A stretch of DNA of 64,000 nucleotides from Acidobacteriota bacterium. Its GTDB lineage: Bacteria; Acidobacteriota; Terriglobia; Terriglobales; Acidobacteriaceae. Position numbers and translations under genes: made by a program. Location of the stretch: NCBI GenBank assembly GCA_021793405.1, contig JAJYSV010000003.1, positions 1 to 64,000 on the forward strand, read 5' to 3'. Shown piece by piece: positions 11,656 through 46,505 of this stretch; positions within the stretch are counted from its first letter, which is position 1; every line of letters begins with the position of its first letter. Below the pieces are notes generated by a model. The model did no database searches. It had not been told where the DNA came from and saw only the letters and a list, made by a program, of their open reading frames with translations.

Positions 11656-11723
11656 AGCTGACTTGATTTTATCGTTAGGACATCTTCGGCGTTACTGGAA
11701 CGCGGAGATATTTCCATCTCACC

Positions 11724-11818
11724 CTAGTATCTCGCTGCATAATTCGGCGAACGATATGGGGTCCGAACCTGTTGGAAAATCAACGGACACCCCATACGCG
11801 AATTTACGCAGCGACTAG
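11724..11818. mobile_element. MITE-like palindromic element, copy 1
   Basis: The element begins CTAGTATCTCGCTGC and ends CGCAGCGACTAG. The inner arms ATGGGGTCCG and CGGACACCCCAT also pair, so the whole unit can fold into one long hairpin with an 18-base loop. CTAG flanks both ends and could be a 4-base target duplication. The right terminal repeat has lost GATA relative to copy 2. Outside CTAG the flanks read CACCCTAG and CTAGGTGG, the two arms of the GGGGCACCC-type repeat, which suggests insertion into such a repeat. It encodes no protein. Confidence 0.7.
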
Positions 11819-11905
11819 GTGGTAATTTCAGCATCCCCGACCACCCGTCCAGAATGGCGCTTGCGCGACCCATTTCTTCGAAGGAGTAGAGCGTGCGGTG
11901 AAGCT

Positions 11906-13132
11906 TCACGGCGACGGAAGTGGCTCAATTTCGCCGCATTGATCCGCCTTGAAAATAATCGCGGTCTGCCCGTCAGTTTTCCACCATCGGACCCATTTGA
12001 GGTAAGTGTCGGGAGGTAGCGGCTTCATTAATTTGGTACTCGCCCCGCTCCGGTGCGTAAGCGCTTCCAGGCCGTACTCGGCTGTTCCGCTCACGCGCCA
12101 CTTGCGTGAAGGCAGAAGACTGATCAGCACCGGTACGGCCGCTCGCGAACCCGTCAGATACAGCGCCCGCACTGCATCCTGTTGTGTATCGATGGATGGA
12201 TCCTTCAACTCGGCAACCAGCGCTGGGACTGCGGCGGCGCCACCAGCCTTGCCAGCGGATCCAATTGCCAAATCTCGGCTGGAGCTGTTGGGTGCATTAG
12301 CGCGCGCCACGTTGAGAAGTAAAGAAATGTCGCCAGGATCTCCGATCTCGCCCAGATAGCGAATGGCAGCCTGGTAAGAGCCGACAACGTTCGTGGGCGT
12401 AGTCTTCTTCACGAATTTCCTCAAAGCCTGATGAGCCGATGGCGTGCCAAGGTTGCGTAGCCCTTCCACGCCGTAATACTGCAGCGCCAGCGTACCAAGC
12501 ATTTTGAGGATCGTCGGCTCCATAAATCGCGGCGCCAGGTACGCGATGATTTTCGCCGCTTCCAGTTTCGTATGCGCATCAGTTGAGGTCAGGTCGCGCG
12601 CGTATTGCGTGAATTCGGGCTTGAGATCATCGGGCTGCGACGGCTCGATCACGACTTCAAGTTGATCCTGAAAGTCCTGATGAATTCTACTGAGTAGCAG
12701 AGTGGCTGTGTCCTCGTCTACAGGGCCGTAATTGAGCCTGTATGTCACATTCAGCGGATAACTACCCGGCTGCCTCAGGTCGTAGCGGGCATTGAGCAGA
12801 ATTCGATCAGTTCGCTTATTGCCCGGTTCCAGAATTACGTCGCCGCTGACGCAACTGCCACCAGCACCGGCCGGGCCGCAGCCATTAGCTTCCCGGTCCC
12901 TCGCTCCCTTCAGATTGAATTGGTAGCCGCTGCAAAAGCTCAGTGGATCGGCCGTGGCAATCATCAGGGGCTCGCGTCCCACGTTCTTTACCGTGAAAAG
13001 AAGGAACACCGGCTCGCCAGCAAGATACGATCTCTTGGAGAGCGAAAAGCTGCCGTCAAGCTGGGCTGCCGCGCCGATCGGTAGAAGAGCAAGTACTATT
13101 CCGACGCAGAGAGCTATACATTTCTTGCGCAC
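11906..13132 (-). CDS. exported HEAT-like repeat protein of unknown function
   Basis: I do not recognise a specific family. The 408-residue protein starts with a clear signal peptide (MRKKCIALCVGIVLALLPIG, cleavage around AAAQ). Residues about 25-165 form a beta-rich domain with three cysteines (SFCSGYQF, NGCGPAG, GSCVSG). The C-terminal part from about 180 has helical repeats with the spacing of HEAT/PBS-lyase units (AVPALVAELKDPSIDTQQDAVRALYL, AVPVLISLLPS). The gene stands alone and is bounded on each side by one copy of the MITE-like element, in the same orientation. Confidence 0.7.
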   Translation of the reverse strand: MRKKCIALCVGIVLALLPIGAAAQLDGSFSLSKRSYLAGEPVFLLFTVKNVGREPLMIATADPLSFCSGYQFNLKGARDREANGCGPAGAGGSCVSGDVILEPGNKRTDRILLNARYDLRQPGSYPLNVTYRLNYGPVDEDTATLLLSRIHQDFQDQLEVVIEPSQPDDLKPEFTQYARDLTSTDAHTKLEAAKIIAYLAPRFMEPTILKMLGTLALQYYGVEGLRNLGTPSAHQALRKFVKKTTPTNVVGSYQAAIRYLGEIGDPGDISLLLNVARANAPNSSSRDLAIGSAGKAGGAAAVPALVAELKDPSIDTQQDAVRALYLTGSRAAVPVLISLLPSRKWRVSGTAEYGLEALTHRSGASTKLMKPLPPDTYLKWVRWWKTDGQTAIIFKADQCGEIEPLPSP

Positions 13133-13169
13133 GGCTCACTCTCTCCTCGCAGAAACGCTTTACACAATA

Positions 13170-13267
13170 CTAGTATCTCGCTGCATAATTCAGCGAACGA
13201 TATGGAGTCCGAACTTGCTGGAAAACCAACGGACACCTCATACGCGAATTACGCAGCGAGATACTAG
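13170..13267. mobile_element. MITE-like palindromic element, copy 2
   Basis: This copy is better preserved than copy 1. It runs from CTAGTATCTCGCTGC to GCAGCGAGATACTAG, giving terminal inverted repeats of about 22 bases with one mismatch. Excluding the flanking CTAG, the core spans 13174-13263. It has the same orientation as copy 1 and differs from it at scattered positions and by the 4-base GATA indel. Confidence 0.75.
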
Positions 13268-13288
13268 CTACGCTAGGATGGGGCACCC
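13264..13288. repeat. partial GGGGCACCC-type repeat abutting the MITE
   Basis: CTAGCTACGCTAGG followed by ATGGGGCACCC is the right part of the palindromic repeat seen whole at 46449-46479. It shares the CTAG at 13264-13267 with the end of MITE copy 2, as expected if the MITE inserted at a CTAG inside the repeat. Confidence 0.55.
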
Positions 13289-13292
13289 AGCG

Positions 13293-14310: not shown

Positions 14311-14342
14311 CCCAAGTCTCAGAATCGAGACCTGGGGCACCC
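14311..14342. repeat. GGGGCACCC-type palindromic repeat (AAGTCTC variant)
   Basis: CCCAAGTCTC and GAGACCTGGGG pair around AGAATC, and CACCC follows. It sits between the sugar porter gene stop and the pyrE start, so it is not inside either gene. Confidence 0.6.
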
Positions 14343-46448: not shown

Positions 46449-46479
46449 TCCCACCCTAGCAACGCTAGGTGGGGCACCC
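46449..46479. repeat. GGGGCACCC-type palindromic repeat, best-preserved copy
   Basis: CCCACCCTAGC and GCTAGGTGGGG pair around AAC, and CACCC follows. It lies between two convergent genes (GH92 and the gene at 46506-48722). It serves as the reference for the copies at 2411-2452 and 13264-13288. Confidence 0.7.
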
Positions 46480-46505
46480 ACGACATTCCGCTCTCGGTGG
46501 ACGTG

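Follow-up and report, generated by a model that had tools for sequence, protein, structure and literature searches.

Two closely similar hairpins bracket a single gene in a 64,000-nucleotide stretch of an Acidobacteriaceae genome (contig JAJYSV010000003.1, positions 1 to 64,000; hereafter, the window), raising the question of whether they settled there one by one or travelled together with the gene between them. An earlier note on this DNA had described them as resembling miniature inverted-repeat elements (MITEs) sitting at CTAG sites. We examined their anatomy, the DNA that they interrupt, the corresponding locus in related genomes, and the candidate sources of a transposase.

The hairpin pair and its passenger gene

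Each hairpin is ~95 bp long; the two are 93% identical over 81 nt and share the same orientation, i.e., they form direct repeats. Copy 1 occupies positions 11728..11814 of the forward strand (11724-11818 including CTAG) and has an intact outer arm, its inner right arm reading GCAGCGA-CTAG with GATA missing. Copy 2 (13174..13263, forward strand; 13170-13267 including CTAG) has both arms intact, and its termini form a perfect inverted repeat, CTAGTATCTCGCTGC / GCAGCGAGATACTAG, of 15 bp with CTAG included and 11 bp without it. Both copies fold far better than shuffled sequences, with z-scores of -5.1 for copy 1 and -7.9 for copy 2. Between the CTAGs, they measure 87-90 bp and contain no gene, as expected of a MITE in the sense of a short inverted-repeat element without coding capacity.

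The two copies differ by six transitions, one single-base indel, and one 4-base gap, the missing GATA. Since this amounts to about 7% of sites, neither hairpin was recently copied from its partner. A putative compensatory change between the hairpins was dropped, as the paired-looking G/A and C/T differences proved to be one position out of register. Both outer termini of the bracketed region are perfect and the sole damaged arm is internal, which is what would be expected if transposition had used the outer ends.

The bracketed gene (11906..13132, reverse strand) encodes a predicted exported protein of 408 aa; HEAT repeats were recognised in it (Pfam HEAT_2, E 2.2e-13), and its N-terminus resembles a signal peptide by eye. 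The identity of the hairpins, their folds, and the HEAT_2 match thus confirm the initial description of two same-orientation hairpins around an exported HEAT-like gene. The arrangement, with non-transposase DNA bracketed by two copies of a miniature element, is that of a composite unit. The GC content at third codon positions (GC3) of the HEAT gene is 0.62, compared with 0.71-0.79 in five neighbouring genes. No relative of the gene was found in the other searched genomes of the genus, and the relatives recovered from a few genomes of the class are distant (23-36% identical). Its absence from the searched genomes of the genus, together with the low GC3, suggests that the gene was probably acquired. 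In one genome, two of the distant relatives lie 5 kb apart (G108:C46:25052-31259; L057, L063), the second of them preceded by an inverted repeat with 37-nt arms.

CTAG abuts all four hairpin ends, at 11724..11727 and 11815..11818 for copy 1 and at 13170..13173 and 13264..13267 for copy 2, so the observation that each hairpin is flanked by this tetranucleotide was borne out. CTAG is rare in the window, with 38 occurrences against 235 expected from base composition; outside the unit, 33 occurrences were observed against 62 expected under a Markov model.

One repeat split at CTAG

The flanks of both hairpins had been read as arms of a dispersed GGGGCACCC-type repeat, with each hairpin nested separately in a repeat of its own. 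We built a profile of this repeat from 14 copies outside the locus and scored the flanks in different joins. On its own, the left flank of copy 1 (11681..11727, forward strand), which ends in CTAG, scores 17.6 bits over model positions 3-47, and the right flank of copy 2 (13264..13289, forward strand), which begins with CTAG, scores 19.6 bits and is identical at 26/26 positions to a repeat copy at L017 2526-2551. When the two are joined at CTAG by removal of 11728-13267, they yield a single ungapped match of 56.4 bits over model positions 3-72, compared with 18.2 bits when only copy 1 is removed and 28.7 bits when only copy 2 is removed. Among 300 controls joined at CTAG sites elsewhere, the highest score was 3.2 bits. 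The restored sequence also matches an intact paralogous repeat of a same-genus genome at 57/69 positions.

The inner flanks are not repeat DNA, and joining them produced no match to the GGGGCACCC profile. The proposed repeat arms were therefore recovered on the outer sides only: a single repeat accounts for both, one half lying to the left of copy 1 and the other to the right of copy 2, and the idea of separate nesting has to be given up. Because one repeat is split and rejoins without a gap, hairpin, gene, and hairpin fill the site as one unit of 1,540 bp, counted with one CTAG (11728..13267). Two separate hairpin insertions into two repeats are excluded by this rejoining, and the unit, having interrupted one copy of a dispersed repeat, has exact bounds.

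Intact paralogous repeats carry one CTAG at the position of the left copy (11724..11727), and the right copy (13264..13267) completes a target duplication that flanks the unit as a whole. The restored repeat demonstrates the duplication for this outer pair only; the inner hairpin ends also adjoin CTAG. The proposal of a duplicated CTAG target within a GGGGCACCC repeat is thus supported by the rejoining of the outer flanks at one CTAG. A general preference for the CTAG of these repeats does not follow: the locus records a single event, and the three other CTAG-flanked elements of the genome lie outside the repeats.

The palindromic nature of CTAG allows two readings of the duplication. If all four bases of CTAG were duplicated, the unit ends are TATCTCGCTGC ... 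GCAGCGAGATA; if TA within CTAG was duplicated, they are GTATCTCGCTGC, with one more base per inverted repeat. The first reading would suit IS5-type transposases, for which CTAG duplication is cited in PMC10379815. The second would suit IS630-type transposases, which duplicate TA (PMC2170065).

When the genome was searched with an intact GGGGCACCC repeat, more than twelve scattered copies emerged, the best spanning about 95 bp; in these copies, CTAG falls within the stem of a central palindrome. Nearly all of the 17 matches seen share a constant frame, CCCA...TGGGGCACCC, which encloses a stem that varies between copies and is mostly still paired (e.g., GGTCTC/GAGACC, ACATCTC/GAGATGT, and CCTAGC/GCTAGG). 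Copies of this frame type lie in the window at 2411-2452, 14311-14342, and 46452-46480, and elsewhere at L014, L015, L016, L082, L085, L089, L101, and L119. A subgroup of about 95 bp has the ends CATTTTCAC and GTGAAAATG (G000 copies L064, L066, L075, and others). The repeat that received the insert may thus be a miniature element in its own right. Half-matching copies were considered as further split sites; those examined are loop variants or degraded copies and hold no large insertions.

Related loci, further copies, and candidate helpers

The insert lies between mtnA and a UBP-type gene. In G062, which belongs to the same genus, the mtnA-UBP gap is about 130 bp long and lacks the unit, and in G016 it is 44 bp long and lacks it as well. 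Within the G062 interval, a diverged sequence weakly matches the left part of the repeat, scoring 9.2 bits with the repeat profile. Empty sites, which the earlier note had proposed to look for, are therefore represented by intact repeats at paralogous positions and by the orthologous intergenic regions; an exact allelic site with an intact repeat and no insert was not found in the relatives searched, the orthologous repeat of G062 being diverged. In G156, the gap is filled by about 1.1 kb of other genes (L014 376-1500), so this interval took in DNA more than once and apparently receives insertions repeatedly. By eye, the genes filling the gap in G156 are apparently heavy-metal transport-like, and similar genes stand beside the UBP-type gene in G172 (L018).

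Beyond the two bracketing copies, no hairpin was detected by DNA search in the 4.6 Mb genome itself or in 397 other genomes of the family, where weak matches were unrelated fragments, nor by a covariance model in 395 other genomes of the phylum. Plasmids yielded none, the 13 matches to the hairpin end pattern in genome contigs and viral contigs were all due to chance on inspection, and the core pattern was absent from viral contigs. The several dispersed copies typical of a MITE family are thus replaced here by a single pair. Copies lacking CTAG flanks, which were to count against the earlier interpretation, were not encountered, as these searches recovered no other copies. For the same reason, a hairpin on its own is only putatively mobile.

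An autonomous element with the hairpin ends was not found in the genome, the 137-contig assembly of which may be missing repeats, and 398 other genomes of the class yielded no inverted pair of these ends at insertion-sequence distance. The genome does contain two CTAG-flanked IS5-like elements with ends GCACTGTTAACGAA and GGCGCGTTCACACT and split transposase frames, and an IS630-family element at CTAG with ends GTGGCCTGTCGCA and an open frame of 356 codons. The TATCTCGCTGC ends are present in none of the three, so the hairpins share no ends that would mark them as derived from the genome's own IS5-like elements. These three compact elements lie at L109 1061-1878, L108 1470-2317, and L123 1382-2497. 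The hairpins are called MITEs for their anatomy and for the outer duplication rather than for their copy number or any known parent.

Probable composite transposition, its alternatives, and known systems

Since the outer flanks rejoin into an intact repeat and the inner flanks do not, the best reading is that the pair moved the gene between them, a possibility that the earlier note had raised. We consider it probable that the locus holds a non-autonomous, MITE-bounded composite unit that was inserted whole by a transposase acting in trans, and we infer that the hairpins are MITEs and that a single transposition event brought the unit. Two MITE-like hairpins in direct orientation would have bracketed one passenger gene, and a transposase supplied from elsewhere would have acted on the outermost inverted ends, TATCTCGCTGC ... 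GCAGCGAGATA. Between mtnA and the UBP-type gene, the 1,540-bp unit would then have entered one GGGGCACCC repeat at the CTAG of the repeat's stem, with duplication of CTAG or of TA within it. The putative helper, for which the earlier note had suggested the IS5 family, would be a DDE transposase of IS5 or IS630 type with a preference for CTAG, and the presence of other CTAG-flanked DDE elements in the genome favours this account.

The main rival is a two-step route, in which a single hairpin MITE first entered the CTAG of the repeat and homologous recombination between hairpins then added the gene together with a second hairpin, both borne on a circle, as proposed for MITESen1 units (PMC13367494). 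Such integration leaves copies in direct orientation and outer flanks identical to those of composite transposition, making the sequence of the locus compatible with both. However, a site with a single hairpin was found neither in this genome nor in the 397 family and 395 phylum genomes, and about 95 bp at 93% identity would be a short and imperfect substrate for recombination. We regard this route as unlikely.

Considerably less probable is a mobile insertion cassette, i.e., one element with hairpin-forming long ends in which the HEAT gene replaced the transposase gene. Cassettes of this kind have been described (PMC5444012), and intact outer ends around a passenger gene would fit one, but each hairpin has inverted ends of its own (one of the four damaged) and CTAG on both sides, features needless for a single element.

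An integron-like origin, with folded single-strand recombination sites around a one-gene cassette, recalls the same-orientation hairpins around one gene and their strong DNA folds. Nevertheless, the RYYYAAC / GTTRRRY core motifs of attC sites are absent from both copies on both strands, and the target is duplicated around termini made of long perfect inverted repeats, so we hold this origin to be very improbable. Equally doubtful is a broader conjecture in which the hairpins would be folded DNA recombination sites, with one-gene cassettes entering the CTAG of GGGGCACCC stems by a non-DDE mechanism and the repeats serving as a dispersed landing array. Finally, strong folds could suggest transcriptional or RNA features of the gene with an incidental flank match, but this is scarcely credible given that no Rfam family matches the hairpins at threshold, that no hairpin pair flanks those relatives of the gene that were examined, and that the split repeat contradicts it, the restored copy scoring far above the controls.

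Returning to the composite unit, its general plan is not new. Units with two MITEs, also in direct orientation and with a duplication around the whole, are documented (PMC4133298, PMC13367494, PMC3934969), and palindromic repeats are already known as insertion targets of IS elements (PMC1525189). The locus gives the impression of an unexceptional, if well-preserved, example of small transposon remnants that jointly moved a gene. The documented MITE-bounded gene units that we found mostly carry resistance genes on plasmids, whereas the present unit offers a clean example from a chromosome, with a gene for an exported repeat protein as its cargo. It suggests that single genes can be carried by very small hairpins of about 90 bp, and comparison of intact and split repeat copies could reveal such units missed by annotation.

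In the TIME-COMPs of Pseudomonas and Enterobacteriaceae, two Tn3-derived miniature elements bound a unit in either orientation (PMC4133298, PMC13367494). The present unit resembles them in that short non-autonomous inverted-repeat elements bracket passenger DNA, with a duplication around the whole and no transposase inside. However, TIME-COMPs have Tn3-type ends, elements of about 250 bp, and duplications of 5-6 bp, whereas the hairpins described here measure about 87-90 bp and the duplication is CTAG or TA, which does not suit a Tn3 origin; judged by this duplication, the unit is not a TIME-COMP proper. The blaPER-1 region of Acinetobacter johnsonii likewise has the same MITE at both ends and is thought to have been mobilised as a whole (PMC3934969), but there a 439-bp element brackets resistance genes on a plasmid, in contrast to the smaller hairpins around a chromosomal HEAT gene. 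A preference for TA in CTAG, the sequence at which the present unit sits, is indicated for an IS630-associated composite by the title of Tenzen and Ohtsubo 1991, listed in PMC2170065; the ends of the IS630-family element in this genome do not match those of the hairpins. The closest single element is MITEPsy1 of Pseudomonas syringae, with 100 nt, 18-nt terminal repeats, a CTAG/YTAA target, and a 4-nt duplication, the movement of which is attributed to an IS5-type helper (PMC3189936). MITEPsy1 has other end sequences, is multicopy, and has been shown to move, whereas the hairpins reported here are two in number and known from sequence alone.
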